Origin: Sphingobium sp. WTD-1
Lineage (GTDB): Bacteria > Pseudomonadota > Alphaproteobacteria > Sphingomonadales > Sphingomonadaceae
Reading direction: 5' to 3'
Assembly: GCF_030128825.1 (NCBI RefSeq)
Contig: NZ_CP119127.1
Location: 3,957,501 to 4,021,500 of the forward strand
DNA length: 64,000 bases
Positions 21,998-57,640 of the stretch are shown one piece after another (within the stretch, counting starts at the first letter, position 1; each line of letters starts with the position of its first letter). Made by a program: the position numbers and the translations under genes. The notes under the pieces were generated by a model that was not told where the DNA came from, searched no databases, and was given only the letters and a program-made list of their open reading frames with translations.

Positions 21998-22026
21998 TTG
22001 CATATCATAATCATATATACGCATAT
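21998..22026. promoter_or_regulatory. Operator pair GCATATCA upstream of phosphotransferase 1
   Basis: GCATATCA occurs at 21998-22005 and again at 22019-22026, exactly 21 bp or two helical turns apart. Read on the minus strand each is TGATATGC, the half-site seen before other operons in this block. It lies 40-68 bases before the chosen start codon. Confidence 0.55.
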
Positions 22027-22090
22027 CAATGCCGAGAGCAACGCCGGGAATGAAGCCGGCAGGCCCGACGCAATTTGCTGGACGAATCCA

Positions 22091-22104
22091 GTAAGCTAGA
22101 TTAC
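22091..22104. promoter_or_regulatory. Operator-like site upstream of the lipoyl-protein gene
   Basis: GTAAGCTAGATTAC is a partial palindrome (GTAA and TTAC arms). It shares GCTAGATTAC exactly with the site at 40444-40453. It lies 63 bases before the lipoyl-protein ATG. Confidence 0.5.
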
Positions 22105-22166
22105 TTATTAGGTCGCAAGCTTACATTTGGCGGGCGCAGAACCGCCACACAGGAAGGGATCTGACA

Positions 22167-22397
22167 ATGGCCACGCAAATCATCCTGCCCAAATTGGGCT
22201 TCTCGATGAACGAGGGCATGCTGGCCGAGTGGATGGTCGTCGACGGCGGCGAAGCAAAGGCGGGCGAACCGCTGTTCGCTTTGGAAAGCGACAAGTCGAC
22301 CCAGGAGGTGGAAGCCCCCGTCTCGGGCACGCTGCGTATCTTCAAGCAGCCCGGCGAGACCTATGAAGTGGGCACTATCCTGGGCGAAATCGAATAG
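22167..22397 (+). CDS. Free-standing lipoyl domain protein (76 aa)
   Basis: The whole protein is one biotinyl/lipoyl domain of the 2-oxoacid dehydrogenase E2 type: MATQIILPKLGFSMNEGML, then the lipoylation hairpin ALESDKSTQEVEAP with the modified Lys43, and an ending PGETYEVGTILGEIE. The DK-S/A hairpin is the E2 kind; there is no acyltransferase domain. A partner is likely the E1alpha and E1beta pair encoded at 41772-43746 in the same regulon, but no E2 catalytic core or E3 is present. It is the first gene of an operon with the beta-keto acid cleavage enzyme and acyl-CoA synthetase. Confidence 0.88.
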   Translation: MATQIILPKLGFSMNEGMLAEWMVVDGGEAKAGEPLFALESDKSTQEVEAPVSGTLRIFKQPGETYEVGTILGEIE

Positions 22398-22462
22398 CCG
22401 CCCGCGCCGCCGCAATCATATCAGAAGAATAACGGGAGGGGCGTGTCAGGCGCCGGAACAAC

Positions 22463-23395
22463 ATGAAGCGTACCGACAAGGTCATCATCACCTGCGCCGT
22501 GACCGGCTCCATCCACACCCCCACCATGTCGCCGCACCTGCCGATCACGCCGGACGAAATTGCAGCGGAGGCGATCGCAGCGGCGGAGGCCGGCGCGGCG
22601 ATGCTGCACCTGCACGCCCGCAACCCACAGACCGGTCAACCGAGCCAGGACCCCGAACTGTTCCGCCAGTTCCTGCCGCGCATCAAACAGTCGACCGACG
22701 CGATCCTGAACATCACCACCGGCGGCGGCCTGGGCATGAGCCTGGACGACCGGCTGGCTCCGGCCCGGACCTTCCAGCCCGAAGTCTGCTCGATGAACAT
22801 GGGATCGGTGAACTTCAACATCTCCGGCGCGGGGGCGAAGATCAGCGACTGGCAGCATGATTGGGAAAAGCCCTATCTGGACATGACCAAGGATTTCATC
22901 CTGTCCAACACCTTTGCCCAGATCGAACGGGCGATGACCCTGCTCGCCGAACAAGGCACAAGGTTCGAGTTTGAATGCTATGATGTCGGGCATCTCTACA
23001 ATCTCGCCCATTTCGTCGATCGCAAGATGGTCGAGCCGCCCTTCTTCATCCAGGGAGTGTTCGGCATTCTGGGCGGACTTGGCCCGGACCCGGAAAATGT
23101 CATGCACCTCAAATCCACCGCCGACCGGCTGTTCGGCGAGGAGTATATCTTCTCGGCGCTGGCGGCCGGCAAGCACCAGATGCGGCTCGTCACCCTGTCG
23201 GCGCTGCTGGGCGGATCGGTGCGGGTCGGGCTGGAGGACAGCCTCTATGCCGGCAAGGGCCAGATGGCGACGTCGAACGCGGTGCAGGTCGCCAAGATCC
23301 GCCGCATATTGGAGGAACTGAGCCGGACCATCGCCACACCGGACGATGCACGTGCGATGATGCAGACCAAGGGCGGCGACAATGTCGCTTTCTGA
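22463..23395 (+). CDS. Beta-keto acid cleavage enzyme (BKACE, PF05853)
   Basis: The family condenses a beta-keto acid with acetyl-CoA to give a CoA thioester and acetoacetate, as shown first for 3-keto-5-aminohexanoate cleavage. Family features are KVIITCAVTGSIHTP at the start, the Zn-binding MLHLHARNP, ITTGGGLGMSLDDR and the ending region FSALAAGKHQMRL. The length (310 aa) is normal. The actual keto acid cannot be read from the sequence. Its last 14 bases overlap the start of the acyl-CoA synthetase gene, indicating coupled translation. Confidence 0.87.
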   Translation: MKRTDKVIITCAVTGSIHTPTMSPHLPITPDEIAAEAIAAAEAGAAMLHLHARNPQTGQPSQDPELFRQFLPRIKQSTDAILNITTGGGLGMSLDDRLAPARTFQPEVCSMNMGSVNFNISGAGAKISDWQHDWEKPYLDMTKDFILSNTFAQIERAMTLLAEQGTRFEFECYDVGHLYNLAHFVDRKMVEPPFFIQGVFGILGGLGPDPENVMHLKSTADRLFGEEYIFSALAAGKHQMRLVTLSALLGGSVRVGLEDSLYAGKGQMATSNAVQVAKIRRILEELSRTIATPDDARAMMQTKGGDNVAF

Positions 23396-24995
23396 CATTG
23401 CTACGCCCTCCGGCGGTCTGGCCGACGGATTGGCCTATGCGCAGGGGCCGGCATTGGACGAAAGCGGTTTCATCCTGCCATCCGAATATCCCAACAGCTT
23501 TGCGACCTCCACCCCGGACAAGACGGCCATCGTCTTCGGCCCGCATAGCTGGACCTACGCGCAGCTTGACCGGGGCTGCAACGCGGCCGTCACCCTGCTC
23601 GCCGACTATGGGGTCGGGCCGGGCGGCCGCTTTGCCTATATCGGCAAGAATAACGACCTGTTCTTCCTGATGCTGATCGGCGCGATCCGCGCCGGCGCGG
23701 TGATGGTGCCGGTCAACTGGCGCAACACCGCACCGGAAACCCGCTATGTGTTGGAGGATGGCGCCGTCAGCCTAGTCCTGTGCGACGCCGAATTTCTGCC
23801 GTTGATCGAGCAGGCCGATCGTGCGGGCCTGCCGCGGATCGTGGTTGATGCGGAGGGCGCGGATGGCCTGCGTGCGCGGATAGACGCAGCCGCGCCCGCC
23901 CCGCGCCAGCCGCTCGATCCGCAGGCGCCCTGCCTACAACTCTATACCAGCGGCACCACCGGTCGCCCCAAGGGGGTGGTGACGTCGCAATATGCGTTCG
24001 GCATCCACCGCCATATCGAAAACCGGTCCGGCTATTTCGCCGATTGGGGCGATGACGAGATATTGCTCTCGCCCCTGCCCTCCTTCCATATCGGCGGCAT
24101 GTCCTGGGTCTGCACGGCGCTGGTGCGCGGCGCGACCGTCCATGTCATCGCCGACACCAGCCCAGCGACAATTCTCGACAATTGCCTGGCCCATGGCATC
24201 ACCCGTACCTTCATCGTGCCGACCCTGGTCCGCGGTCTGATCGGCGAGATGGATGCGCGCGGCGTGCGTGTGCCAACGCTGCGGGGCATCCATTATGGCG
24301 CGGCGTCGATGGACCCGGCCCTGCTGGAGCGATCGGTCGACCGCATCGGCTGCCGCTTTCTGCAATATTATGGCATGACCGAGATTTCGGGGACGATGTC
24401 GATCCTGGGACCGGACCAGCATGACGCCAGCAGGCCGGCCCTGCTGCGATCGGTCGGACGTCCCCTTCCCGGCTTCGCGATCGCCATTCGTGGACCGGAC
24501 GGCGACCTGCTGCCGATCGACACGCCCGGCGAGATCTGGGTGAAGGGGCCAAGCCTGCTGATCGCATATTGGAACAAGCCAGAGGCCACGGCGGAAGCGC
24601 TGATCGAGGGCTGGTATCGATCAGGCGACGGCGGGCGGCTGGACCGGGACGGCTTCCTGTTCCTAACCGACCGGATCAAGGATATGATCGTGTCGGGCGG
24701 CGAGAATGTCTATCCGGCCGAGGTCGAGGCGGTGCTGCGCGACCATCCGGCCATCCTCGACTGCGCAGTGTTCGGCCTGCCCCATCCCAAATGGGGCGAG
24801 GGCGTCACCGCGGCGCTGGAACTGCGCCCCGGTCATGCGGTCGAGGCGGACGATGTGATCGCTTTCGCGCGACTATCGCTGGCGGCCTACAAGATCCCTC
24901 GACGGATCGAGGTGGGCGTGCAGCTGCCGCGCACCGCATCGGGCAAGGTGCAGCGCGCGGCGATCCGCAAATATTTCATCGAGCAGGCGGATTGA
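23382..24995 (+). CDS. AMP-forming acyl-CoA synthetase (537 aa)
   Basis: It activates a carboxylic acid to its CoA ester through an acyl-adenylate. Motifs in order are the P-loop-like LYTSGTTGRPKGVV (about residue 187), QYYGMTEISGTM, the YRSGDGGRLDRDGFLFLTD hinge, ILTDR-like DRIKDMIVSGGENVYPAEVE (first 16 residues characteristic), and the catalytic Lys in PRTASGKVQRAAIR. The substrate is unknown. It is translated from an ATG inside the end of the upstream gene and is the main acid-activating enzyme visible in the block. Confidence 0.9.
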   Translation: MSLSDIATPSGGLADGLAYAQGPALDESGFILPSEYPNSFATSTPDKTAIVFGPHSWTYAQLDRGCNAAVTLLADYGVGPGGRFAYIGKNNDLFFLMLIGAIRAGAVMVPVNWRNTAPETRYVLEDGAVSLVLCDAEFLPLIEQADRAGLPRIVVDAEGADGLRARIDAAAPAPRQPLDPQAPCLQLYTSGTTGRPKGVVTSQYAFGIHRHIENRSGYFADWGDDEILLSPLPSFHIGGMSWVCTALVRGATVHVIADTSPATILDNCLAHGITRTFIVPTLVRGLIGEMDARGVRVPTLRGIHYGAASMDPALLERSVDRIGCRFLQYYGMTEISGTMSILGPDQHDASRPALLRSVGRPLPGFAIAIRGPDGDLLPIDTPGEIWVKGPSLLIAYWNKPEATAEALIEGWYRSGDGGRLDRDGFLFLTDRIKDMIVSGGENVYPAEVEAVLRDHPAILDCAVFGLPHPKWGEGVTAALELRPGHAVEADDVIAFARLSLAAYKIPRRIEVGVQLPRTASGKVQRAAIRKYFIEQAD

Positions 24996-25017
24996 CCGCC
25001 GTCGCAGGAGAAACGGC

Positions 25018-25329
25018 ATGTATCTGATCGCGCGGCTGGAACTCTCCTATGCCGGCCTGATGGAGTTCATGGCGATCGCACCGAAGGTCCGAGAGAAGAT
25101 GGAAGCGCAGGGCTGCAAGATGCTCCACGCCCTGTTGCAACAGACCGAACGGTTCAACACCATCATCCATCTGTGGGACGTGCCAGACGCCAGCGCCTAT
25201 TTCACGGCGATCAACGCGCTGCAATCGGACCCCGACTTTCCCGAGATCATCGCCGCGCTGGGCCGGTCGGTGGTGAACGAGACGCTCGCGCTGGCGGTGG
25301 ATACGCCTTACGCGCCGCAACGGACCTAA
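25018..25329 (+). CDS. Hypothetical small protein, possibly dimeric alpha/beta-barrel type (103 aa)
   Basis: I do not recognise a family with certainty. The order of predicted strands and helices (YLIARLELSYAGLMEFMAIA, later FNTIIHLWDVPDASAYFTAI) resembles NIPSNAP or EthD-like ferredoxin folds. It lies 22 bases after the acyl-CoA synthetase and its end overlaps by four bases the convergent phosphatase gene. At least four other small proteins of this general shape occur in the block. Confidence 0.55.
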   Translation: MYLIARLELSYAGLMEFMAIAPKVREKMEAQGCKMLHALLQQTERFNTIIHLWDVPDASAYFTAINALQSDPDFPEIIAALGRSVVNETLALAVDTPYAPQRT

Positions 25330-26108
25330 ACCAGCAACCGCCCCCGGATCGCGTCGATCAGCGCGCTGTCCAACCCCAGTTCGTCCCGAATGAAACCCTC
25401 GCCCGATCCGTGGCGCACCTCGACCGTCTCGAACATCGCGGCGAGATAGGCTGGATCGGCGCGCATCATCGGTTCCCAGATGCGCGGGTTGATGCCGGCC
25501 AGCCGATCGCCAAACGGGTCCTTCGCCACCAGTTCGCAGCCGCGTGCGAAGAAGCGATCGGTGATCGCATAATCCGCCAGCACATCCGCCCGCGCCACCC
25601 CCAGCAGGTCGAGCAGCAAGGCCGCGGCGATACCGGTGCGGTCCTTCCCCGCTGCGCAGTGGAAAACCAGCGGCAACGGACCGGCGGCGATCCGACGGAA
25701 CAGTTCGCGATAGGAAGGGGCCTGTTCATAGGCAAGATCGCGATACGCCTCGACCATCAGCGCCTTCGATCTCTCCGGCGTGGCATCGGGATGCCGCATC
25801 GCTTCGGTCAGGTCGCCTGCGCTCATCGGATGATCTCGCGCCCAGATTTCATACTGCGCCGCTTGCGGCAGTCGCGACGGCCGCCGTTCCCGCTCGCGGG
25901 TCGAGCGGAAATCGCAGATCAGCGCCAATCCCAGCGCGTCCATCACCGCATGGTCCCGGTCGGTCAGTTCCGACAGGGTACCCGACCGATAGACGAGGCC
26001 GTGCGCCACCATCCGCCCGTCCGCACCGCGATAGCCGCCGATGTCGCGGAAATTATGGCCACCTTCCAGCGCCACGATGCGGTCGAAATCCTCAACCGGG
26101 CTGCTCAT
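25326..26108 (-). CDS. Tyrosine-specific (PTP-like) phosphatase (260 aa)
   Basis: The signature HCAAGKDRTG is the C-x5-R P-loop of protein-tyrosine and lipid phosphatases of the Tyr_phosphatase3 family. The N-terminal motif GGHNFRDIGGYRGADG and YRSGTLSELT are also typical. The start at 26108 overlaps the stop of the flavodoxin-like gene (ATGA). The target may be a small phosphorylated metabolite rather than protein. Because this block contains three phosphotransferases, a role in removing phosphate from a hydroxyl ester is worth considering. Confidence 0.85.
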   Translation of the reverse strand: MSSPVEDFDRIVALEGGHNFRDIGGYRGADGRMVAHGLVYRSGTLSELTDRDHAVMDALGLALICDFRSTRERERRPSRLPQAAQYEIWARDHPMSAGDLTEAMRHPDATPERSKALMVEAYRDLAYEQAPSYRELFRRIAAGPLPLVFHCAAGKDRTGIAAALLLDLLGVARADVLADYAITDRFFARGCELVAKDPFGDRLAGINPRIWEPMMRADPAYLAAMFETVEVRHGSGEGFIRDELGLDSALIDAIRGRLLV

Positions 26109-26740
26109 GCCTGGCTGACTCGCGCCAGCAAGTTTCGCGTGAAGGGGGCCACCCGCGCGACCGCTTCGTCGGACAGGCCGTAGCGCGGCAGCGGGAAGCC
26201 GGCAAAGCGCCGGCGCCCGCCATCGGTGCGATAGAGATAGGTGATGGTCTGGATCAGGCTGCCGATCTGGCCACCAGGATGCATGAAGGGCTCGCCGCCC
26301 AGGAAGCAGCCACCGGCCGCCTCCCCCAATTGCCGGACGATGTCCAAATTCTTCTGCCACAGCCGACGACAGACGATATAGGCGCCGAACGGCGTGCCCG
26401 ACAGCACGGCTTTGGCGGCCGGGCTTTCGAGAAAGGAACGCATCGGCACCGACGGGTGATCGCCCCAGGTATTGCTGAACAGCAGCACCGCATCATAGCG
26501 CCCGTTTATTGCATCAGGCGGATCATAGGTGAGCGGAACGGTCATCCCCTTCTGTGCGCCCTGTGTCCATTTCTTGGACGCGGCGACATTCATCGGTCGC
26601 GCCAGCACATCGGCCGGGTCGGACATCGCCATGCGACAACAAGTCACGTCCCACCCTGCGGCGCGTGCGGCATCGGCGGCGAGGCCAGCCGCCTTTTCCG
26701 CCTGGCCGGTCATCGAATAATAAAGGATCAGACAATGCAT
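26105..26740 (-). CDS. Flavodoxin-like NAD(P)H-dependent oxidoreductase (211 aa)
   Basis: The N-terminus (LILYYSMTGQAEKAA) is the FMN-phosphate-binding loop of flavodoxin-like folds, and FSNTWGDHPSVPM is the second FMN-contacting loop. It probably transfers electrons or reduces quinones. The start at 26740 lies 13 bases after the MaoC gene stop and has GGAGGG upstream. It is the middle gene of a MaoC, flavodoxin-like and phosphatase operon. The fusion-like C-terminal 60 residues are not assigned. Confidence 0.7.
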   Translation of the reverse strand: MHCLILYYSMTGQAEKAAGLAADAARAAGWDVTCCRMAMSDPADVLARPMNVAASKKWTQGAQKGMTVPLTYDPPDAINGRYDAVLLFSNTWGDHPSVPMRSFLESPAAKAVLSGTPFGAYIVCRRLWQKNLDIVRQLGEAAGGCFLGGEPFMHPGGQIGSLIQTITYLYRTDGGRRRFAGFPLPRYGLSDEAVARVAPFTRNLLARVSQA

Positions 26741-26753
26741 CGCGCGCCCTCCG

Positions 26754-27608
26754 TCAGCCGACGCTGGCCGAGCAACGATCAAGCACCACTGCGTTGCGCT
26801 CCACCGCCACCGCCCGGAAGCGCAATTGGCCAGCGCCTTCCTCGAAAAATTCGAAGCGGATGGTTTCGCCCGGCATCACCGGCTTGCTGAAGCGCACGAA
26901 CATCGACTGGAAGCGCGCCACGTCATGATCGCAATAGCCGGCCAATATCGCGCGGTTGGCCAGCCCCTTGGTACACAGGCCATGCAGGATCGGCCGGTCA
27001 AATCCCGCCTTGCGCGCGATGGCAGGGTCGGCATGGAGCGGGTTCCAGTCGCCGCTGAGGCGATAGATCAGCGCCTGGCGCGGCAGGGTGGCGATCTCCA
27101 CGATGCGGTCGGGCGCGCGATCGGGCACCGGTTGCGCAGCGGGCATCGCATCGCCAAAGCCCCCCTCCCCGCCATTGCCGCGCAGGAACAGGGTGGAGCG
27201 GACGGTGGCCAAATGATCGCCGGTCGCGTCATCGAACAGGTCTTTCTCCTGATGCAATAGTGCGCCGCGCCCCTCGCCCTTGTCCTCCAGCCCGGCGACG
27301 CGATATTCGCCCCGGATCGCACCGGTCGCGGGCAAGGCTTGATGCATCACCAGATCCTGTTCGGCATGTAATATCTTGACCCAGTCGATGCCGAACTGCG
27401 GATCCTGCGCCCAGAAACCGGGATGGCACAGGATGTTCGCATAGGATGGAAGGCAGCGCAGATGCTGCTCATAGACGAAGGGCAGTTCCGCCTCGTCCAG
27501 CGGGTCGGCGCCATAGCCCAGGCCCAGCGCATAGAGGATGGCATCGCGCCTATCATAGGGCTGGATGATCGGATCGATCGCCATCGTCCGGATCTTTTCG
27601 ATGTCCAT
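26754..27608 (-). CDS. MaoC-type enoyl-CoA hydratase 2 (284 aa)
   Basis: Two hot-dog domains are visible. The second contains the complete hydratase-2 signature YRLSGDWNPLHADP with the catalytic Asp and His, followed by GFDRPILHGLCT. It is similar to the hydratase part of peroxisomal multifunctional enzyme type 2. It would hydrate trans-2-enoyl-CoA to (R)-3-hydroxyacyl-CoA. It heads a minus-strand operon and is divergent from the first Rieske oxygenase, with operator-like sites between them. Confidence 0.88.
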   Translation of the reverse strand: MDIEKIRTMAIDPIIQPYDRRDAILYALGLGYGADPLDEAELPFVYEQHLRCLPSYANILCHPGFWAQDPQFGIDWVKILHAEQDLVMHQALPATGAIRGEYRVAGLEDKGEGRGALLHQEKDLFDDATGDHLATVRSTLFLRGNGGEGGFGDAMPAAQPVPDRAPDRIVEIATLPRQALIYRLSGDWNPLHADPAIARKAGFDRPILHGLCTKGLANRAILAGYCDHDVARFQSMFVRFSKPVMPGETIRFEFFEEGAGQLRFRAVAVERNAVVLDRCSASVG

Positions 27609-27662
27609 CGCGCCGTCATCCCCTCCGGCGCTTGCGCGCCTCCTATTTGGTTCGTATTAGAA

Positions 27663-27748
27663 TGATAAGCTAGCAATCTTAAATCCGAAATGCCAGCGAG
27701 AAATGATATGCCAGCACACCAGATTGACAATATGGTATGCTGGCCTAT
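27663..27748. promoter_or_regulatory. Cluster of three operator-like sites in a divergent promoter region
   Basis: TGATAAGCTAGCAAT lies at 27663-27677, TGATATGCCAGCAC at 27704-27717 and TGGTATGCTGGCC at 27733-27745. All are variants of the TGATATGCTAGCAC motif found before other units in the block. They lie between the MaoC operon (minus) and the Rieske oxygenase operon (plus). Confidence 0.6.
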
Positions 27749-27813
27749 GATCTGACCGGAAGAGAATGGCGGTGTCGGCAAGGCTGCCCGACCATGTCCA
27801 AGGAGAAGGATCG

Positions 27814-29220
27814 ATGGGTAGCCAGACCAAATTCGCGCCCGATTATCGCGAAAGCCCCGCCCCGCTGTTCCAGCAGGTGATCGCTGACGATCCGATCCCC
27901 GCACCCGCCGTGCTGCGTGAATATTCCGAGATCGACGTGCCCGTCGCTCGCGTGCCGCGCGACCAGTATCGCAGCCCCGCCTTCGCCGCGCTGGAAGAGG
28001 AGCGGCTATGGCCTCGCGTCTGGCAGATGGCCTGCCGCGAAGAACAGATCCCCGAAGTCGGCGACTGCGTGGTCTATGATAGCCCGGGCGCGTCCTTCAT
28101 CATCGTGCGCAGCGGTCCCGACGATATCCGGGCCTATTATAATAGCTGCCTGCATCGCGGCATGAAGCTGTGCGCCCAGGATACCAGCGTCGCCAAACTC
28201 TCCTGCCCTTTCCATGGCTTCACCTGGAATCTGGATGGTACGCTCGCGCATGTGCCTTCGCGCTGGGATTTCCCGGGCCTCAAGGACGAGAATATGCATC
28301 TGCCGCAGGCGCGGGTGGAGCGCTGGGACGGTTTCGTCTTCCTCAACCGCGATGCCGATGCGCCGCCGCTGGCCGACTATCTGGGCCACATACCGGCGCA
28401 TTTCGCCGACTGGTCCTATGGCGACAAATATCTGGCGACAGTGATCCGCAAGACGATCGACGCCAACTGGAAAACCTGTATCGAGGCGTTCGTCGAATCC
28501 TATCATCTGGCCGGCATCCATGCCCAGGCGCTGCCCTTTGGCGGCGATGCCAGCACCCAATATGATGTCTGGGCCGACGATCCCCATGTCAGCCGCTTCA
28601 TGGAGCCGACCGGCATCATGAGCGACCAGTTGCCCCGCGCCTTGTCGGAACAGGAAATCCTCAACTCCGCGCTGTCGGTGGTGTTTGCAGGTGCGGTGCC
28701 GCCGACACTGGAGGATGGCATGAAGGCCCGCCACTTCATGGCGGCGGGGATGCGCGCGGCGATGGGCGAAGCGCATGGCGTCGATTATTCCGCCATGTCG
28801 GACGCGGAAGCGGGCGACGCCGTGCAATATTCGCTGTTTCCCAACCTCATCATCTTCCGCTCGCTGGGCTACCCCTATGTCTATCGCTTCCTCCCGGTCC
28901 GGGGCGATCCCAACCGCGCAACTTTCGAGTTCATGATCTTCAAGCCCAAGCCAGCCGACGCTCAATGGCTGCCCGAAGTGGAGAAGGTCGAGCTGGGCGA
29001 GACAGACACATTCGCCGGCGCGGGGGTGCTGCCTCCCTGGCATGGCGAGATATATGATCAGGACGTCAACGGCCTGCGCCAGTGCCAGGCCGGAATGCGC
29101 GACGGCGGCGACGCCGACATCATCTATTCCGCCTATCAGGAGGTGCGCATCCGGCACCTGCACCAGACACTGGCCCGCTATGTCAGCGACGATCCCCGCG
29201 ACGCGCCGGGGCGCCGCTAA
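27814..29220 (+). CDS. Rieske non-heme iron oxygenase, alpha subunit 1 (468 aa)
   Basis: The Rieske cluster is ligated by C112 and H114 (SCLHRGMKLC) and C131 and H134 (CPFHGFTW). The catalytic domain has the mononuclear iron motif VESYHLAGIHAQ. It hydroxylates aromatic or alicyclic substrates with electrons from a ferredoxin. No beta subunit follows, so it is likely a homotrimeric alpha-only enzyme. The start at 27814 has AAGGAGAAGGA upstream, which excludes the ATG at 27766. It begins an operon with two small proteins and an MDR reductase. Confidence 0.9.
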   Translation: MGSQTKFAPDYRESPAPLFQQVIADDPIPAPAVLREYSEIDVPVARVPRDQYRSPAFAALEEERLWPRVWQMACREEQIPEVGDCVVYDSPGASFIIVRSGPDDIRAYYNSCLHRGMKLCAQDTSVAKLSCPFHGFTWNLDGTLAHVPSRWDFPGLKDENMHLPQARVERWDGFVFLNRDADAPPLADYLGHIPAHFADWSYGDKYLATVIRKTIDANWKTCIEAFVESYHLAGIHAQALPFGGDASTQYDVWADDPHVSRFMEPTGIMSDQLPRALSEQEILNSALSVVFAGAVPPTLEDGMKARHFMAAGMRAAMGEAHGVDYSAMSDAEAGDAVQYSLFPNLIIFRSLGYPYVYRFLPVRGDPNRATFEFMIFKPKPADAQWLPEVEKVELGETDTFAGAGVLPPWHGEIYDQDVNGLRQCQAGMRDGGDADIIYSAYQEVRIRHLHQTLARYVSDDPRDAPGRR

Positions 29221-29618: not shown

Positions 29619-29629
29619 GAAACGGCCTC

Positions 29630-30658: not shown

Positions 30659-30667
30659 GCGGCAGGA

Positions 30668-42755: not shown

Positions 42756-42762
42756 GGATGTC

Positions 42763-50102: not shown

Positions 50103-50120
50103 CGAACGCCTGTCCGTAAA

Positions 50121-50153
50121 AGGGGCGCCGGGCATATAGCCCGGCGCCCCTTC
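50121..50153. terminator. Bidirectional intrinsic terminator
   Basis: AAGGGGCGCCGGGC (50121-50134) and GCCCGGCGCCCCTT (50140-50153) form a perfect 14-bp stem with an ATATA loop between two converging genes, oxygenase 2 and the LLM oxidoreductase. Confidence 0.85.
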
Positions 50154-50159
50154 ATCGGG

Positions 50160-51032
50160 TCAGCGCATAACCCGGTTGGCGAAATCCTCGACGAACCGCC
50201 TTTTGTCGTCGAAGCTGGACCGCAGCACGCCCAGCGCATGGTCGATCGGCCCGACATGATGCTGGGTCACGCCCAGTTCGGCCGCCCTGTGATAATCATC
50301 GCGCGAAGGGAGCGAACCGTCTTCGTTACGAGCGAGGCCCACCATATACTGGAACGGTAGATGCGTCCGCCCCGCATCATGCCGGCCTTCCTCGATCAGC
50401 GCGATCTGCCCGGCCAGGTCCGACAGCTTGGTCGTCATCCCCATCCAGCCATCAGCGACCATGCCCGTCCGATGCAATGCCGCCGGCGCGACCGACCCCA
50501 TATAGATCGGGATGGGCGCCGCCGGGCGCGGTTCGGCAAAGGTCGGCGGAAAATCGAAAAATGCGCCATGATGCTCGACCGGCCCCTCCCCCCACAGCTT
50601 GCGCAGGATTTCCATCATCTCGACCGTGCGCGGCACGCGCGTTTTCCAGTCGACACCGGCCATGTCATATTCGTCGCGCATCCATCCGGTGCCCACGCCC
50701 ATCACGAAGCGGTCGCCGCTGATCCGGGCGAGGGTCGCAGCCGCCTTCGCCACCAGAAAGGGATTGGTCCGATTGGCCAGCACCATGATGCAGGAACCGA
50801 ACTTCAACCGGCTCGTCCGCGCAAGAACTGCGCCGCCAAAGGCAAAGATGTCGGGGAACACATAGTCCATCGGCAGTGGCGCGCGTTCGTTGGGATCATG
50901 GTCGCCCGAACCGGCGGGCAGGAACCAGTGATCGTCGCCCAGCACGCCTTCAAAGCCGATCTGTTCGGCCAGTTCGGCCAGCACCAATCCCTGCTCGGGC
51001 GGGGTATTATGTATATGCAGCCAATATTGCAT
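50160..51032 (-). CDS. LLM-class flavin-dependent oxidoreductase (290 aa)
   Basis: Bacterial-luciferase-like TIM barrel: YWLHIHNTPPEQGLVLAELA, then RLKFGSCIMVLANRTNPFLV, RISGDRFVMGVGTGWMRDEY and RTVEMMEILRKLW are all typical. Such enzymes use FMN or F420 for hydride transfer or Baeyer-Villiger-type oxygenation. The start at 51032 has GGAGAG upstream. It lies downstream of the TonB-receptor gene in the same direction, with a terminator between, so it may be partly independent. Confidence 0.85.
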   Translation of the reverse strand: MQYWLHIHNTPPEQGLVLAELAEQIGFEGVLGDDHWFLPAGSGDHDPNERAPLPMDYVFPDIFAFGGAVLARTSRLKFGSCIMVLANRTNPFLVAKAAATLARISGDRFVMGVGTGWMRDEYDMAGVDWKTRVPRTVEMMEILRKLWGEGPVEHHGAFFDFPPTFAEPRPAAPIPIYMGSVAPAALHRTGMVADGWMGMTTKLSDLAGQIALIEEGRHDAGRTHLPFQYMVGLARNEDGSLPSRDDYHRAAELGVTQHHVGPIDHALGVLRSSFDDKRRFVEDFANRVMR

Positions 51033-51055
51033 CGCGTCTCTCCGCCTCAAACGGA

Positions 51056-51086
51056 AAGGGAGCGACCATTGTCTGGTCGCTCCCTT
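51056..51086 (-). terminator. Intrinsic terminator after the TonB-dependent receptor gene
   Basis: AAGGGAGCGACCA (51056-51068) and TGGTCGCTCCCTT (51074-51086) form a perfect 13-bp stem with a TTGTC loop. On the minus strand it follows the receptor stop and leads to TTTCCGTTT. Confidence 0.85.
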
Positions 51087-51112
51087 CCCCCTTTTATCCC
51101 GATCGTCCGGCG

Positions 51113-53542
51113 TCAGAACTTGAAGACAAGTTCACCACCATAGGTGCGCGGCGCACCCGGCGCAGACGAGAAGGCAGAGCCCGACGCCTGGGCATAATAG
51201 TTGATGTTATATTTCCGGTTGGTGATGTTCTTCATCCAGAAGCGGAGCTGGACGTTATCCCAGCTCTCCGGCGTCACGCCGATCGCCCCATCCAGAATGA
51301 AGCGCGCCCGCTCCTTGATCAGATTGTCGGCGTCCCAATTGAAATTGCTCGACCAGTTGCCGTTCATGTCCAGGTTGACTTCGCCAAAACCGTTGATTTC
51401 GGTATTATAGGTAAAGCCGCCGCTGAACTTCCACTTCGACGCATAGGGCATGCGATGCCCGCTGCAGTTGATGTTGATCTGGTCCAGATTGCCCGGCGCC
51501 GTCGGCGAATAGACATAGGATGCGCAATCCAGCCCGCCATCGCCATCGACATCGCCAAAGTCGCGATATTTGGCATCGAGATAGGTGCCACCCAGGCGCA
51601 GCGTCAGCCCCTGCGCGACCACCGCCGTCGCATCGAACTCGACGCCCTTGGTCCGGGCGGAGCCGGCATTCTTCAGGAACACCAGGCCGTTACGCTGGGC
51701 CAGGATCTGCGGGTTCGACAGGTCGTTCCAGAAACCGGCAATGTTCAGGCGGACCCGGCGGTCGAACAATTCGGTCTTCAGGCCGACCTCATAAGTGTCC
51801 ACCACTTCCGGCTGCAACGCCTTCTGATCCAGCGGTAAGGTATTGAAAGTGCCTGCCTTGTAGCCCCGGCTATAGGTCGCATAGGCCATGATGTCGTCAG
51901 TGAACTTGTGATCGACGGTTCCCTTGTAGGTCCATTTCTTGAAGGTGCGACTGGCGTTGGGATTGTCACCATCCACGATGCTGATACCCAGCGGTCCGCC
52001 GAAGTCATTATTCTCGTCGAACTGCTGCGCCCGCAGCACGAACGGGTCCGGCCCGAACACGCCTGGGAAGAAATGCACATCGGTAGAACCGTGGCCCGCA
52101 ACCTTGTCGACCGTGTAGCGCAGGCCGCCGGTGATATTCGTCATCTCGCCCAGCGGCACGGTCACCTGTCCAAAGCCGGCATAGGATTTGACCTTCTGCT
52201 GACCGAGTATCCGGATATAGTCGATGCCATTGGCATTCTGACCGGGACCACCGATGATGGTCGGGTTGAAGCCACCGTCCGCGTTGAGATAATAGGCACC
52301 CAGGATCCAGTTTATCTTGCTCGCCGCCTTGGACTTGAGCTGGAATTCCTGGGAGAACTGCTTGTCGACGATGTTCAGATCATAGACCAGCCAGTCATAA
52401 TCCGAATAGTTGCCCGATGAATGATAGAGTTCCTTATTCTTGCGATAGGCGCTGATGCTGACGAAGTCGGCAAAATTGCCCAATTCCTGGTCGATGCGCG
52501 CCGACACACCCCAGCCTTCCGACTGATCATATTGTTCTTCGGCCAGCGACACATCGTAGAAGTCGAGCGGCGGCAAGACCTGAGAAGGAACCGGTGCATT
52601 GGGAATGGCGCCGGCGCCATTATGGGCCGGATCGGGCGAGCCGCCGACGGTCCCTGGGAAAGGCCGGGAATAGATGCCGATCTGGCTCCAGCTATTCTGA
52701 TAATAGCCGATCAGCTTGATCGCCGTGGTATCGGTCGGTTCCCACAATATCTTGCCGCGCAGGCTGACGCTGTGGCCCTTCCAATAATCGTCGCCGCCCG
52801 GCTGATAGCCCTTGGACGTGTCGAGCTGGTCGACCAGTTTCTTGTTCCGGCCCCAACCCTGATCCTGATTGTGCCAGCTGAACGCAAAATTGGCCGCCAG
52901 CCGATCGGTGATCGGCATGTTGCCATAGAATTTCAGATCCATCGTCTCGTAATTGGCATAGCCCATCCGGGCTTCCATTTCTGCGTTCTGGCTCGGGTCC
53001 TTGGTATAGATGGAGATCACGCCACCCGAGGCATTACGGCCGAACAATGTACCCTGCGGCCCCTTGAGCACTTCCACCCGGTCGACGCTGACCAGATCGA
53101 AAAAGGGCGCCGACGCGCGCACGAAATAGACGTCGTCGATATAGACCGGGACGCTCGCCTCATTGCCCGATGTCGTGACCGGATTGCCGATGCCGCGGAT
53201 GAAGGTCGTCACCGTGCCGGTCGCCATACCGATCTGCAACGCGGGGTCGACGCGGCTGAGTTCCTGGACGTTGGTGATGCCCTGCGATACCAGCGCTTCA
53301 CCCGATACGGCGGTGACCGAAAGCGGCGTATCCTGCACATTCTGCGCGCGCTTCTGCGCGGTGACGACGATGTCCTGAAGCTGGTAAGTTTCCTGCGGTT
53401 GCGCCTGGGGGGCTGCGGCTTCCACCTGCGCCAGTGCGGACGGCGCAAACGCCATCACGCCGGCGATTGCCGCGCCCCCCCGCATCAGCCTGCTCCGCAG
53501 CGGCACAGAACGGCGCACAGAATTAATGGATGCTCCAGACAT
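51113..53542 (-). CDS. TonB-dependent outer-membrane receptor (809 aa)
   Basis: A signal peptide (GGAAIAGVMAFAPSALAQ) is followed by the plug domain (QLQDIVVTAQKRAQNVQDTP, SGEALVSQGITNVQEL) and a 22-stranded beta barrel ending in the aromatic YGGELVFKF. The barrel has the sphingomonad-type layout used for uptake of hydrophobic and plant-derived compounds rather than siderophores, though substrate cannot be read. Three in-frame ATGs follow a GGAGG; the third (53542) has the best spacing. A second-form operator lies about 175 bases upstream. Confidence 0.9.
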   Translation of the reverse strand: MSGASINSVRRSVPLRSRLMRGGAAIAGVMAFAPSALAQVEAAAPQAQPQETYQLQDIVVTAQKRAQNVQDTPLSVTAVSGEALVSQGITNVQELSRVDPALQIGMATGTVTTFIRGIGNPVTTSGNEASVPVYIDDVYFVRASAPFFDLVSVDRVEVLKGPQGTLFGRNASGGVISIYTKDPSQNAEMEARMGYANYETMDLKFYGNMPITDRLAANFAFSWHNQDQGWGRNKKLVDQLDTSKGYQPGGDDYWKGHSVSLRGKILWEPTDTTAIKLIGYYQNSWSQIGIYSRPFPGTVGGSPDPAHNGAGAIPNAPVPSQVLPPLDFYDVSLAEEQYDQSEGWGVSARIDQELGNFADFVSISAYRKNKELYHSSGNYSDYDWLVYDLNIVDKQFSQEFQLKSKAASKINWILGAYYLNADGGFNPTIIGGPGQNANGIDYIRILGQQKVKSYAGFGQVTVPLGEMTNITGGLRYTVDKVAGHGSTDVHFFPGVFGPDPFVLRAQQFDENNDFGGPLGISIVDGDNPNASRTFKKWTYKGTVDHKFTDDIMAYATYSRGYKAGTFNTLPLDQKALQPEVVDTYEVGLKTELFDRRVRLNIAGFWNDLSNPQILAQRNGLVFLKNAGSARTKGVEFDATAVVAQGLTLRLGGTYLDAKYRDFGDVDGDGGLDCASYVYSPTAPGNLDQININCSGHRMPYASKWKFSGGFTYNTEINGFGEVNLDMNGNWSSNFNWDADNLIKERARFILDGAIGVTPESWDNVQLRFWMKNITNRKYNINYYAQASGSAFSSAPGAPRTYGGELVFKF

Positions 53543-53715
53543 CATCATCCTCCCTCAATTTTCGACATATATTCAGAAATGCGATTATGTTTTTTCCGCA
53601 TTCCGGATTTTCGACGTTCCAGAATCATTCTGGAAAATGTCCCTCGTCTCATTCGAGCATCCAATGCGGCCCCGAAATGCGACTTAGGCTTATTCAGTAT
53701 CGAACGCTCTTATAT

Positions 53716-53727
53716 CGTATGCATGCG
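53716..53727. promoter_or_regulatory. Second-form operator CGTATGCATGCG before the TonB receptor
   Basis: CGTATGCATGCG shares GTATGCATGC exactly with the site at 57629-57638. This is the second sub-type of the recurring motif. It is the only motif copy in the 280-base region upstream of the receptor, which otherwise holds AT-rich sequence and no gene. Confidence 0.5.
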
Positions 53728-53822
53728 CACTTATAAAGCAAACCTCTTCCCGGTCAATGGGCAAAGCCGCAAATCTCATTGCCTCGGGTCAATGCATCGT
53801 TGGCGTGACGCAAATGTCGCAG

Positions 53823-54707
53823 TCAGGCGGGATCGCAGAAATGGACGGGCTGCGACCAGGGAAAGAAATCGGGCATGTCACGTGACACCCGGTCGGGGAA
53901 ATCGGGCATCCGCTTGGCGAGAAAGCTGTCGACCCCTTCGGCCATGTCGCCAGCACGGGCGCGCGCATGAATCCCCCGGCTTTCAATCCTGTGCGCTTCC
54001 ATCGGATGGAGCATGCCCATGGATTGCCACAGCATCTGCCGGGTCAGCGCGACCGACACCGGCGCCGCATTGGCGCTGATCGTGGCGGCCAGTGCCCGCG
54101 CGGCAGGAATCAGTTCGTCGACGGGATGAAGCGATCGCACCAGCCCCTTGGCCAATGCCTCCGACGCCGGAAAGGTCGCCCCGGTCAGCATCCATTCCAG
54201 CGCCGTGGGCAAGCCTACGATGCGCGGCAGGAACCAGCTTGAGGCCGACTCGGGCACGATGCCACGACGGGTGAAGGGCAGCGCGAATTTCGCGTCCTGC
54301 GCCGCCAGCCGGAAATCGGCCGCCAGCGCCATGGTGACGCCCATGCCCGCCGCCGACCCGTTGAAGGCGACGATGACGGGTTTCAGGCAATCATAGATCC
54401 GCAAGCTGATCAGACCGCCAAAATCGCGATTTTCAGGGCCCGACCAGTCGACCTCGCCTGCGTCGGGCTGCCGCGTGGACAAGGATGAGCCAGCCGCCGA
54501 CAGGTCCGCGCCCGCACAGAACGCCCGCCCCGCCCCCGTAATGATGACCACGCGAATATCGTCATCCACATCGATCCGGTCGAACAGCGCCACCAGATCC
54601 CGCGCCATCGACCGGGTGAAGGCATTCAGCCGGTCGGGACGGTCGAACAGGATCGTCGCCACATGGTCGCGCAGGTCGAGCCGGAAATGCTCCGGTACGG
54701 CGTTCAT
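53823..54707 (-). CDS. Enoyl-CoA hydratase/isomerase 2 (294 aa)
   Basis: A crotonase-fold enzyme: VATILFDRPDRLNAFTRSMA, AGRAFCAGADLSA as the oxyanion segment, FNGSAAGMGVTMALAADF, and FALPFTRRGIVPESASSW, where the catalytic Glu position carries Glu in VPESAS. A hydratase is likely. It follows DUF7064-like paralogue 5 with a gap of 13 bases and may be cotranscribed with it. The start at 54707 precedes MNAVPEHFRL. Confidence 0.86.
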   Translation of the reverse strand: MNAVPEHFRLDLRDHVATILFDRPDRLNAFTRSMARDLVALFDRIDVDDDIRVVIITGAGRAFCAGADLSAAGSSLSTRQPDAGEVDWSGPENRDFGGLISLRIYDCLKPVIVAFNGSAAGMGVTMALAADFRLAAQDAKFALPFTRRGIVPESASSWFLPRIVGLPTALEWMLTGATFPASEALAKGLVRSLHPVDELIPAARALAATISANAAPVSVALTRQMLWQSMGMLHPMEAHRIESRGIHARARAGDMAEGVDSFLAKRMPDFPDRVSRDMPDFFPWSQPVHFCDPA

Positions 54708-54720
54708 CACCCCGCCCCCG

Positions 54721-55680
54721 TCATGCATCCATCAGCGCGCCGATTTCGACATTGGCGAGCCCCTCCTCCCCCGTCTCCTCACACCGCACCCGGCACATAT
54801 TCTCGACATTGAGATAGACTTTGGCGCCCGGCTTCTGTGAATGCAGCGGCAGGCGGGCAAAGGAATTGCCGACATCGGCGACCAGCGTGAACCGCTCCCC
54901 GCCCAATGTCGTCGCGCGGAAAATCACGGTGTCCGGCATGCCCTCGGGGCCCTGCCCGACATGCTCGATCGTGAGCACCTTGATCACCTCATTGCCCTCG
55001 GGCCGGGCGATATAGCCTTCCGCCGTCCTGTTCTCCGGCCGGATGACGTTGCGCACCTGCATCAGGTGGAAGCCCATGGACGGGAAGTTGAAGAAGGCCC
55101 AGACATGGTCCAGCGTCATCTGATCGTTGCGCATGCCCCAGCTATGGTCGCGATAGCCCGATCCATCGACGGCGATCGACGTCCCCGCCCAATCACCCGC
55201 CTTGAAATCGATCTGGCCGGTCGCGTTCATGCACTGGCCCTGATGGCGAAAGCTGTTGCGCTCGAACGCGGTATTTTCCGAGATCGAAAACCAGTCCGGA
55301 TTGACGTCGGCACAGGCCTGGAAATCGAACAGGTGCATGCGCCGGGTGAAATGCAGCACAGCGGAAAGATTGTCGTCCTCGAACGCCACCCGAAACTCCG
55401 TCTGGGGCTTGAGAAAGTCGAGGGTCAGCCCGCCATAATGGAGCTGCTTCTGGTGCTCGAAGGGCGACGGCATCGCCACTTCCTTGCCGCTCACGATCGT
55501 CTGCCCCTTGTGGAGGACGGTGAAGGACGCAAAGGCGCGATCATAGGTCGGCTCGGCGGTGCAATGGGCCAGGCAGCACAGGTCGCGATCGGGGTCCATG
55601 AAGACCCAGAAATAATTCTCCTTCCAGCGCAGCCAGGCACGAGTCGGCACCGTATGGGGATAATCCTCGTGCAACAGCAT
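54721..55680 (-). CDS. DUF7064/7065-like protein, paralogue 5 (319 aa)
   Basis: The family motif is RDHSWG at 177-182, preceded by TSIAVDGSGYRDH. GGAGAG lies upstream of the ATG at 55680. It is the smallest of the five, with a clear beta-rich N-terminal half (WFVF-type WVFMDPDRDLCCLAH). It begins an operon with enoyl-CoA hydratase 2 and diverges from marR2. The paralogue number within one block is unusual. Confidence 0.65.
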   Translation of the reverse strand: MLLHEDYPHTVPTRAWLRWKENYFWVFMDPDRDLCCLAHCTAEPTYDRAFASFTVLHKGQTIVSGKEVAMPSPFEHQKQLHYGGLTLDFLKPQTEFRVAFEDDNLSAVLHFTRRMHLFDFQACADVNPDWFSISENTAFERNSFRHQGQCMNATGQIDFKAGDWAGTSIAVDGSGYRDHSWGMRNDQMTLDHVWAFFNFPSMGFHLMQVRNVIRPENRTAEGYIARPEGNEVIKVLTIEHVGQGPEGMPDTVIFRATTLGGERFTLVADVGNSFARLPLHSQKPGAKVYLNVENMCRVRCEETGEEGLANVEIGALMDA

Positions 55681-55725
55681 GCGCGCTCTCCTGGCTGTGG
55701 CTCGATCGCATCGGCCTTTGCAATT

Positions 55726-55743
55726 TAGTATGATAGCATATTA
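55726..55743. promoter_or_regulatory. Operator-like site between paralogue 5 and marR2
   Basis: TTAGTATGATAGCATATT contains TATGATAGCATA, one base different from the palindrome TATGCTAGCATA. A direct repeat of TATCATGC follows at 55776 and 55788, twelve bases apart. Confidence 0.6.
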
Positions 55744-55828
55744 TAAATTTGCAACCCATCCGCCCATTAGGATGGTATCATGCGTACTATCATGCCAGAC
55801 AGATCGCATATTCAGGGACAAACCGGCC

Positions 55829-56341
55829 ATGGCTTCACGGCAGAAAGCACCCAAGAACAAGGCGCAGGACAATCCCGAAAGTGATGCGCCACGCCCTGTC
55901 GTCAAGCCGTTCCGCTTCGGTTTTCTGGTCCATGACGTCTCGCGCATGCGCCGCACCCTGTTCGACGAGGTGATGCGCTCTCGCGGTGTCACCCGATCGC
56001 AATGGTCGGTGCTGGCAACCCTGTCGCGGGTCGGCCGCGACGGCATGATGCAGGTCGATCTGTCGCGGCATATGGACGTCGGCAAGGTGACGATCGGCGG
56101 CCTGATCGACCGGCTGGAAGCGGCCGGCCTGGTCGAACGCCGACTGGATGTCGACGATCGCCGCGCGCGCCGGGTGTTCATCACTGCCAAGGGCTTCGAG
56201 GTCATCGCCGAGATGCAGAAGGTCGGCAACAAGCTCAACAAGTCCATCCTTGCTGGCGTCCCGGCCGAGCATCAGCGCATCACCGAAGAAACGCTGGCGC
56301 AGGTCAAATTGAACATCCGCCAGATGCTCCAGGAACAGTGA
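55829..56341 (+). CDS. MarR-family transcriptional regulator 2 (170 aa)
   Basis: A paralogue of the first marR. Both show the FGFLVHDVSRMRRTLFDEV-type N-terminal segment, VTRSQWSVLATLSRVGRDG, the helix MDVGKVTIGGLIDRL and the wing VDDRRARRVFITAKG. The start at 55829 is chosen because upstream in-frame ATGs lie within the operator region. It is followed after 10 bases by enoyl-CoA hydratase 3, and its promoter carries operator-like sites, so autoregulation is likely. Confidence 0.9.
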   Translation: MASRQKAPKNKAQDNPESDAPRPVVKPFRFGFLVHDVSRMRRTLFDEVMRSRGVTRSQWSVLATLSRVGRDGMMQVDLSRHMDVGKVTIGGLIDRLEAAGLVERRLDVDDRRARRVFITAKGFEVIAEMQKVGNKLNKSILAGVPAEHQRITEETLAQVKLNIRQMLQEQ

Positions 56342-56351
56342 ACAGACGATC

Positions 56352-57146
56352 ATGACCATGAAGGAAGAGCGCTGCGATTTTCATGCGCTGACGATCGCGG
56401 ACGGCATCGCCATCCTGACCCTGGACCGCAGCGACCGCATGAACGCGCTGCATCCCGCAGCGCATCATGAACTGGCCGCCGTGTTCGACCGCCTGCCGAC
56501 GCTGCCCGACGTGCGCGTCGTCATCGTCACCGGCGCGGGCGACCGCGCCTTCTGCGCGGGATACGACCTCAAGGACAATCTGGAAACCGGCGTCATGGAA
56601 CTGGCGCCGACCGGCTTTGCCGGTTTCAATGGCCGTACCGACTATCCGCTGCCGGTGATCGCGGCGGTCAACGGCATGGCCTTTGGCGGCGGATTTGAGC
56701 TGGCGCTAGCCTGCGATTTCATCATCGCCGCCGACACCGCCAGCTTCGCCCTACCCGAACCCAGGGTCGGCTGGGCGGCGCTGGGCGGCGGCATCCAGCG
56801 CCTGCCGCGCGCAGTGGGGATGAAGCGGGCGATGGACATCATCCTGACCGGCCGCACCGTCCACGCCGCCGAAGCCCATGCCATCGGCCTTGTCAGCGAA
56901 ATTGTCAGGCCCGACCAGTTGATCAACAGCGCACGAAGTTGGGCCGCGCAGATCGTCGCCTGCGCCCCGCTCGCCATTCGCTGCTCGAAACAGGCGGCCT
57001 ATGCCAGCTTCGACCTGCCCGATCTCGCCGCCGCACTCGATATCGCCAATCACCCGCTTGGCCAGACCGTGATGGACAGCGCCGACGGCGTGGAAGGCAA
57101 GCGCGCTTTTGTCGAGCGCCGCACACCGCGTTGGAGCGGTCGCTAG
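56352..57146 (+). CDS. Enoyl-CoA hydratase/isomerase 3 (264 aa)
   Basis: Crotonase-fold: IAILTLDRSDRMNALHPAAH, DRAFCAGYDLKDN as the oxyanion segment, AFGGGFELALACDF, and LPEPRVGWAALGGG, with the second catalytic position occupied by Glu-Pro rather than a typical hydratase Glu. Thus the reaction could be hydration, isomerisation or a ring-opening. It lies in an operon after marR2 with the LEH-like protein. Confidence 0.87.
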   Translation: MTMKEERCDFHALTIADGIAILTLDRSDRMNALHPAAHHELAAVFDRLPTLPDVRVVIVTGAGDRAFCAGYDLKDNLETGVMELAPTGFAGFNGRTDYPLPVIAAVNGMAFGGGFELALACDFIIAADTASFALPEPRVGWAALGGGIQRLPRAVGMKRAMDIILTGRTVHAAEAHAIGLVSEIVRPDQLINSARSWAAQIVACAPLAIRCSKQAAYASFDLPDLAAALDIANHPLGQTVMDSADGVEGKRAFVERRTPRWSGR

Positions 57147-57176
57147 GGCACCACAAACCCCAAGGGAGAGACAAGC

Positions 57177-57566
57177 ATGTCCACCACCAATCAGGATCGA
57201 GTCCTGGCCTTCATCGACCTGTGGAACCGCCGCGACCTCGACGGCCTGCTCGCGGCGATGGCGCCCGACTGCGTCTATCATAATATCCCCTGGGCGCCGC
57301 TGGTCGGCCATGCCGCGATCCGCGAGGGCCTGTCCCTGTTCGTCGCCGACGCCGCCGAGATAGACTGGCAGGTCCGGCACATCGCCCAGGGCGCCGACGG
57401 CCTGGTCCTGACCGAGCGACTGGACCGCTTTCTGCTGGCCGGCCAATGGCTGGAAATGCCGGTCATGGGCATCTTCCAGTTGCGCGAAGGCCTGATCACC
57501 CATTGGCGCGACTATTTCGATTCGGCCCAGTTCCAGGCGGCGATGGCGACCCTCAACCAGGTCTGA
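57177..57566 (+). CDS. Limonene-1,2-epoxide hydrolase-like protein (129 aa)
   Basis: The small SnoaL/LEH fold with the full catalytic set: Tyr34 and Asn36 in VYHNIPW, Arg81 and Asp83 in TERLDRF, and Asp112 in HWRDYFD, matching Tyr53, Asn55, Arg99, Asp101 and Asp132 of Rhodococcus limonene epoxide hydrolase in order and near spacing. It would hydrolyse a cyclic epoxide to a diol without a covalent intermediate. Together with the second, unrelated epoxide hydrolase at 31686, this points to an epoxide intermediate. The gene follows enoyl-CoA hydratase 3 after 30 bases. Confidence 0.83.
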   Translation: MSTTNQDRVLAFIDLWNRRDLDGLLAAMAPDCVYHNIPWAPLVGHAAIREGLSLFVADAAEIDWQVRHIAQGADGLVLTERLDRFLLAGQWLEMPVMGIFQLREGLITHWRDYFDSAQFQAAMATLNQV

Positions 57567-57626
57567 CCTCCCTTCGCCCCGACGATTGGTGTGACGAGAA
57601 ACCTTGCAGTACGCTTCCGAACAATA

Positions 57627-57640
57627 TAGTATGCATGCTA
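57627..57640. promoter_or_regulatory. Second-form operator TAGTATGCATGCTA before the Gfo/Idh gene
   Basis: TAGTATGCATGCTA is a near-perfect palindrome (two mismatched bases) and shares GTATGCATGC with the site before the TonB receptor. It lies 40 bases before the oxidoreductase ATG. Confidence 0.55.

Follow-up and report, generated by a model that had tools for sequence, protein, structure and literature searches.

Does a palindrome that recurs among catabolic genes of Sphingobium sp. WTD-1 mark a single regulon, and which regulator would read it? The window analyzed here comprises 64,000 nucleotides (C1:3957501-4021500) of contig C1, one of the 6 contigs that make up the 5.67-Mb genome. A sequence-only reading of the window had listed variants of the palindrome across 36 kb and proposed that two MarR paralogues encoded there bind them. 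Our comparisons suggest that the palindrome is probably the common operator of these paralogous block-encoded repressors, MarR1 and MarR2. The interpretation given by the sequence-only reading is partly supported: it is largely right on one regulon of operator-like palindromes and on MarR1 and MarR2 as likely readers, and unsupported on a form preference of each paralogue.

Recurrence and extent of the palindrome

The sites conform to a single imperfect 18-bp palindrome with the approximate consensus TRRTATGC-TA-GCATAYYA, and variants are present near the coordinates of the sequence-only reading. When scored with the final matrix, 10 of its 13 listed positions have a site of at least 17.8 bits within about 20 bases; sites are also present at the other three (21998, 22019, and 53716), at the weaker scores of 14.6, 12.2, and 12.0 bits. 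The cluster reported at 27663-27748 consists of three sites, starting at 27663, 27704, and 27733. The block sites, which were picked by a symmetric matrix, pair at a mean of 5.6 of 9 positions compared to 2.4 expected, and their ends are variable (TGAT, TAGT). The site before marR1 (31634) had been called near perfect and pairs at 7 of 9 positions. A motif-free scan of the window for near-perfect palindromes of 16 to 20 bp had no operator among those listed, given that the operators pair imperfectly. The sites in the window are as follows.

22089..64000: part of the operator-bearing block in the window, which goes on to C1:4057395
21990..22028: two weak sites (starts 21990 and 22011) with the repeated half-site GCATATCA, 14.6 and 12.2 bits
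22089..22106: operator upstream of the APH-family gene 20492 (-), 17.4 bits; absent from the earlier list and overlapping an unaccepted small open reading frame (ORF), 22101-22415
27663..27680: operator between the MaoC gene (-) and Rieske oxygenase 1 (+), 17.8 bits
27704..27721: operator overlapping the minus-strand promoter-like site 27730-27703, 21.3 bits and promoter scan
27733..27750: operator overlapping the plus-strand promoter-like site 27724-27751, 18.4 bits and promoter scan
31634..31651: operator upstream of marR1, 19.1 bits
34807..34824: operator between a glyoxalase gene (-) and an SDR gene (+), 22.6 bits
40438..40455: operator between gene 39558 (-) and an acyl-CoA dehydrogenase gene (+), 22.4 bits
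40513..40530: operator before the acyl-CoA dehydrogenase gene (earlier listed at 40505), 20.6 bits
47524..47541: operator between a DUF7064 gene (-) and a DUF7065 gene (+), 17.9 bits
48643..48660: operator upstream of Rieske oxygenase 2, 23.5 bits
53715..53732: weak operator-like site with an AT center upstream of a TonB receptor gene (-), 12.0 bits; 15.0 and 15.5 bits at two orthologues, with other centers
55726..55743: operator between marR2 (+) and an Rv3169-like gene (-), 26.3 bits; at least 16 bits in 4 of 5 other marR2-clade genes
57627..57644: operator with an AT center upstream of a Gfo/Idh gene, 18.5 bits

The abundance of the motif in the window is not expected by chance. With at most one mismatch, TATGCTAGCA has 8 matches in the window compared to 1.49 expected, a number that 0 of 100 shuffles reached; these matches represent 6 distinct places, two of which are read on both strands. 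The exact 10-mer TATGCTAGCA occurs 4 times in the genome, always within 54 kb (C1:3992310-4046133), with two occurrences to the right of the window. The 18-mer TRRTATGCTAGCATAYYA with at most three mismatches is found at 14 places in the genome, and 14/14 fall in the 61 kb of C1:3985204-4046138 (the backwards control gave 5). A prior-free ranking of 7-mers in the block relative to background placed GCTAGCA, ATGCTAG, TAGCATA, and GCATGCA, all pieces of the palindrome, at the top.

The genome-wide runs used patterns, and the matrix was applied to sampled stretches. A symmetric matrix trained on 22 sites recovered, at 15 bits or more, its 22 sites in an 80-kb block stretch (C1:3977501-4057500) and none in fourteen 20-kb background stretches, in window positions 1-20000, or in the 20 kb to the left of the window. 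The corresponding block and background counts were 24 and 1 at 13 bits and 29 and 7 at 11 bits. Given that these 22 sites trained the matrix, more weight is carried by a held-out test, in which a matrix built from 12 window sites identified 10 sites of at least 14 bits in the 40 kb that follow the window on its right, whereas 280 kb of background contained none (11 and 3 sites, respectively, at 12 bits). Chance and base composition were rejected as explanations on the basis of the shuffles, the 7-mer ranking, the confinement of the 18-mer, and the held-out prediction. An equal motif frequency in the rest of the genome, set beforehand as the refuting outcome, was not observed, and the recurrence claimed earlier thus holds. 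The extent claimed earlier does not. Strong sites span window position 22089 to C1:4057395, about 36 kb beyond the right end of the window, and the block measures approximately 80 kb rather than 36 kb. A tRNA-Lys gene (19693-19768) lies immediately to the left of the block and is a possible island edge.

The GTATGCATGC form, described earlier as a second kind of site, is the identical palindrome with AT replacing TA as its center. This center is scarce, with 2 cases among the 22 strong block sites and 1/14, 0/19, 0/8, 0/3, 0/6, and 1/7 in six other clusters. The site at the TonB receptor promoter is centered on AT in the window and on GA and AA in AP50 and S. lactosutens, respectively; the Gfo/Idh gene site was absent at the three orthologues examined; and the site of the HMG-CoA-synthase-like gene has a TA center in the window and an AT center in TomTYG64. 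Since the AT center is rare and is not kept at the orthologous promoters examined, we rejected the existence of two conserved operator classes. The suggestion that each MarR paralogue prefers one form is likewise unsupported, the AT-center sites being too few to settle a preference either way.

Placement relative to genes and promoters

Placement was determined for 23 of the 24 block sites of at least 13 bits; the 24th (99895 in merged coordinates) is outside this count. By our gene set, all 23 sites are intergenic in a block that is 9.1% noncoding, and 18 of the 23 lie between divergent genes, which agrees with the mostly divergent placement described earlier; the divergent calls at 67675 and 76818 rely on ORFs outside the Pfam scan. 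In this gene set, six starts near sites were shortened (also two elsewhere), and the small ORF 22101-22415 and several long Pfam-less ORFs antisense to accepted genes are omitted. When the longest ORFs of the accepted genes are used, 16/23 sites are intergenic, and the remaining 7 hinge on start or ORF choices.

Two promoter-like sites lie in the divergent region before Rieske oxygenase 1.

27724..27751, plus strand: promoter-like TTGACA-16-TATGAT before Rieske oxygenase 1, 11 of 12 matches
27703..27730, minus strand: promoter-like TTGTCA-16-TATCAT before the MaoC gene, 10 of 12 matches

At both, an operator covers the spacer and the -10 element. The overlap of operator and promoter, noted earlier for the site at 40505, is clear at 27703-27751, and it is less clear at the other sites: of 35 promoter directions, 5 have the operator center 7 bases upstream of the -10-like hexamer that scores best, with varied offsets and weak hexamers otherwise. 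We considered that the repeats could be promoter elements instead of operators, given that their arms resemble the -10 hexamers TATCAT and TATGAT, that promoter-like hexamers overlap several sites, and that the 7-base spacing recurs in those five directions. The sites are, however, two-fold symmetric, confined to one block, and placed at varied offsets from promoter-like elements, which makes this explanation hardly credible.

MarR1, MarR2, and the motif in relatives

The block encodes three MarR proteins.

30992..31543, minus strand: MarR1, a MarR/SlyA-like protein of 183 amino acids; Pfam MarR_2, 51.4 bits (cutoff, 27)
55829..56341, plus strand: MarR2, a paralogue of MarR1; Pfam MarR_2, 46.5 bits (cutoff, 27); start set by alignment with MarR1, the longest ORF beginning at 55679
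C1:4030600-4031112 (L031:9100-9615): MarR3, the third MarR gene of the block, found by its likeness to MarR1; its recognition helix is different

Both MarR1 and MarR2 score above the cutoffs of Pfam MarR_2 and MarR and thus have the winged-helix domain. They align at 56% identity with nearly identical recognition helices, those of the clade being VGKVTVGGL[VI]DRLE and VGKVTIGGLIDRLE, and relatives in the genome beyond the three block proteins are at most 31% identical. In Pfam scans of the block proteins, MarR1 and MarR2 were the sole regulators found, with several ORFs, including that of MarR3, outside these scans. The MarR1 clade (98/96) is apart from the MarR2 clade (93/98, just below the program's star) in a tree; the tree and the clade counts exclude loci L098-L108, which are second copies of L051-L061.

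We found orthologues of MarR1 (62 to 75% identity) in five records of the Sphingobium type and six of the Acidocella/Acetobacteraceae type; three of them are metagenome-assembled genomes (MAGs) labeled only Proteobacteria and placed by the tree. The search for MarR2 yielded orthologues in G075 and in four of these Sphingobium-type genomes. We scored the best site in the 350 bases upstream of each marR gene at a threshold of 16 bits, with the window genes included. A site was present at 7 of 12 MarR1-clade and 5 of 6 MarR2-clade genes (12/18, with 6/18 lacking one), or at 10/16 once the two window genes, which had served in matrix training, are removed, compared to 0.08% of random 360-base windows (a partly coding and hence lenient null). 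The motif, its location, its conservation, and its co-distribution with the MarR1/MarR2 clade are direct observations. The earlier claim that both paralogues bind these sites is backed by comparison, through the clade co-distribution and the helices; the binding itself is a prediction.

One paralogue alone could use the sites, or each could use a subset, with the other protein acting on another target. The modest identity of MarR1 and MarR2, their maintenance as separate clades, and the variable site ends are consistent with such a division. Their recognition helices are nevertheless near-identical, and genomes with a single type, of either kind, have the motif at marR: at E 1e-25, G302 (S. 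vermicomposti), G304, G307, and G308 yielded the MarR1 type alone and G075 the MarR2 type alone, and the motif is present at the marR gene in all five. We therefore consider a division of this sort unlikely.

Clusters of sites of at least 15 bits recur in relatives, in stretches picked for marR genes or pattern hits. AP50 has 14 sites in 159 kb, compared to 1 in 160 kb of its background; the corresponding figures are 19 in 160 kb and 1 in 120 kb for S. lactosutens, 8 in 40 kb and 0 in 80 kb for S. vermicomposti, and 3 in 19 kb and 0 in 40 kb for G075. For Acidocella aquatica, only the cluster stretch was scored, with 6 sites in 20 kb. These five clusters total 50 sites in 398 kb, a number reached by 0 of 200 symmetric column-permuted matrices (maximum, 12). 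The sites also follow orthologous genes (at least 55% identity; one-sided Fisher test). In AP50, a site was found at the orthologues of 16/25 site-bearing and 2/27 site-free genes (P = 1.7e-5), and the respective counts were 16/22 and 5/29 in S. lactosutens (P = 8e-5) and 5/7 and 0/13 in S. vermicomposti (P = 1.4e-3), where a single gene accounts for two of the five. A family-wide pattern count was noisy, with at least one match in 167 of 298 genomes; the window genome has 14 matches and the others 0 to 6, except G068 and G233, two genomes of one genus with 17 matches each, which we read as composition given their backwards controls of 10 and 12.

In a region of TomTYG64, 27 block queries were matched at 45% identity or more, MarR1 and MarR2 matching one gene. 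This region contains 7 sites of at least 15 bits in 90 kb compared to 0 in 150 kb elsewhere on the replicon, and only three of the matched genes (MaoC, the first acyl-CoA dehydrogenase, and the HMG-CoA-synthase-like gene) have an upstream site of at least 13 bits. Ten Sphingobium strains bearing Tom names likewise have replicons that carry MarR1 orthologues (76 to 80%).

Several observations weigh against MarR1 and MarR2 as readers of a block-specific operator or limit the weight of single tests. The 10-mer with one mismatch gave 72 genome matches (17 in the block) and is non-discriminating, because its backwards controls were higher (143 and 131). Four sites of 15.0 to 15.6 bits in three 20-kb loci picked for near-matches speak against full exclusivity of the motif to the block; 26 other loci picked likewise (78 kb) had no such sites. 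The overall promoter scan of 21900-41000 gave 7 compared to 4.5 (standard deviation, 2.4) in shuffles. Orthologues of site-bearing genes lack a site in 9/25 cases in AP50 and 6/22 in S. lactosutens, and orthologues of site-free genes have one in 2/27 and 5/29 cases, respectively. The region upstream of marR1 scores no higher than 11.3 bits in 5 of 12 MarR1-clade genomes (AP50, YR768, SKS3, S. lactosutens, and a bog MAG), and the best upstream scores are 10.2 bits for SKS3 marR2 (1 of the 6 MarR2-clade genes), 10.3 bits for TomTYG64 marR1 (outside the 18-gene count), 10.7 bits for the 54% identical L190 (G565), which has the same helix, and 10.4 bits for L193 and L194, which have a near-identical helix. 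Three of the single-type genomes are draft MAGs, in which absence of the second type is weak evidence, and the random-window null is lenient, as stated above. The counts are also not independent, given that divergent pairs share sites, certain genomes are nearly identical to one another, and a single S. vermicomposti gene is matched by both the MarR1 and the MarR2 query. The results for TomTYG64 and L190 slightly lowered our confidence in MarR1 and MarR2 as readers.

The block also contains the gene for MarR3, which is present together with the others in five Sphingobium-type relatives (62 to 72% identity). MarR3 or a regulator encoded elsewhere could read the palindrome, with marR1 and marR2 as mere targets. 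At E 1e-15, however, MarR3 was not found in four genomes with the motif at marR1 or marR2 promoters (G075, G304, G307, and G308), and the Pfam scans, within the scope given above, revealed no other regulator. MarR3 was rejected as the sole reader, and we regard a reader other than MarR1 and MarR2 as very unlikely.

The four off-block sites lie at L034:10036 and 10079 (43 bases apart), L036:10219, and L035:1348 and may be extra targets or chance occurrences. Among distant MarR relatives with a VE.I[TS] helix (L077-L091), 11 of 14 have a different palindrome, near TAATAAGCATGCTTATTA, 19 to 67 bases upstream of the aligned region, which possibly represents a helix-operator specificity pair. A class-wide search at E 1e-35 gave matches in 9 of 385 genomes, with mixed upstream sites.

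Proposed regulon, known systems, and island content

Our model, in which we infer physical binding, repression, a ligand, and a substrate, is that MarR dimers, when no substrate is present, would occupy 18 mostly divergent intergenic regions, at the promoters or close to them, and would repress oxygenase, beta-oxidation, and other catabolic genes along with their own marR genes. A ligand derived from the pathway, which may be a CoA ester or an intermediate of steroid- or terpenoid-like type from an early step, would free the DNA of MarR, and this release would induce the whole island; inactivation by a pathway intermediate is expected by analogy with the family. MarR repressors of catabolic genes usually control one or a few adjacent promoters, and the sharing of more than 20 sites by two paralogues would therefore be unusual. 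The regulon would be new, with known parts and a known mechanism and with unusually many operators.

KstR, the regulator of the actinobacterial steroid regulon, is a local TetR-family protein with many palindromic operators over a large catabolic cluster. The block resembles it in its local regulators and many palindromes, whereas the block regulators are MarR proteins. We tentatively propose, as a plausible reading that falls somewhat short of an even chance, that two sister MarR proteins govern a steroid- or terpenoid-degrading island of approximately 75 to 80 kb through more than 20 operator copies, that regulator and operators recur in Sphingobium and Acidocella-type Acetobacteraceae, and that the system is a MarR counterpart of the KstR regulon. 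A sequence-defined operator tags the genes of an uncharacterized catabolic island in several genera, and since it would mark the island genes, pathway membership, inducer, and substrate become directly testable.

The top solved-structure matches of MarR1 are SlyA chains, and the operator of SlyA-type MarR proteins (TTAGCAAGCTAA) shares the frame TnnGCnnGCnnA with the block operator, according to the consensus in part of one report (PMC5797941). MarR1 and MarR2 differ from SlyA in scoring below the cutoff of the NCBIfam SlyA equivalog NF002926 (78.3 and 63.4 bits; cutoff, 120), in their operator arms, and in a regulon that is a single local block of catabolic genes. In Sphingobium sp. SYK-6, DesR is described (PMC6888825) as a MarR repressor of catabolic genes with three target regions, vanillate and syringate as ligands, and inverted-repeat operators (GTTTGTGTCACATAC), one of them over a -35 element; by inspection, the block operator differs from this type. 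Part of a review (PMC5487221) presents a divergent single-operon scheme for MarR control, and for the phenanthrene genes of Sphingobium an IclR-type regulator is described (PMC13273656). No report of the operator was found in the open-licence papers searched, mostly as listings, and the exact 12-mer gave unrelated papers.

The block encodes Rieske oxygenases, P450s, acyl-CoA dehydrogenases, enoyl-CoA hydratases, a thiolase, an HMG-CoA-synthase-like protein, and SDRs, as well as APH-like, DUF7064/7065, and Rv3169-family proteins and a TonB receptor. We lean slightly toward a substrate of the steroid or terpenoid type. A match to the bile acid dehydratase BaiE (1.5e-13) was obtained for one SnoaL protein, and an FAD protein scores far below the ketosteroid dehydrogenase cutoffs. 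Solved-structure searches with SnoaL2, a P450, and two Rieske oxygenases indicated no specific substrate, Rfam at the gathering threshold gave tRNA only, and the open-licence literature searches did not name the island substrate. MarR is not mentioned in the passages of PMC12175502 and PMC8540908 that deal with the degradation of bile salts by Sphingobium. Part of an mBio 2023 paper (PMC10653915) reports steroid-catabolic genes in alpha-tomatine-degrading isolates, among which TomTYG64 presumably belongs, judging from its name; the terms MarR and Rieske are absent from its main text. The many block genes in the TomTYG64 region provide a likeness to the steroid/sapogenin catabolism of tomato-associated Sphingobium and do not imply a link between the block and sapogenins.

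Rv3169-family and DUF7064/DUF7065 proteins are encoded at 35699-36913, 38476-39561, 46470-48594, and 54721-55680, clustered with APH-like proteins. The gene at 22463-23395 encodes a BKACE-family protein that exceeds the cutoff set in NCBIfam for 3,5-dioxohexanoate:acetyl-CoA acetone transferase and is 89 to 90% identical in four Sphingobium clusters.

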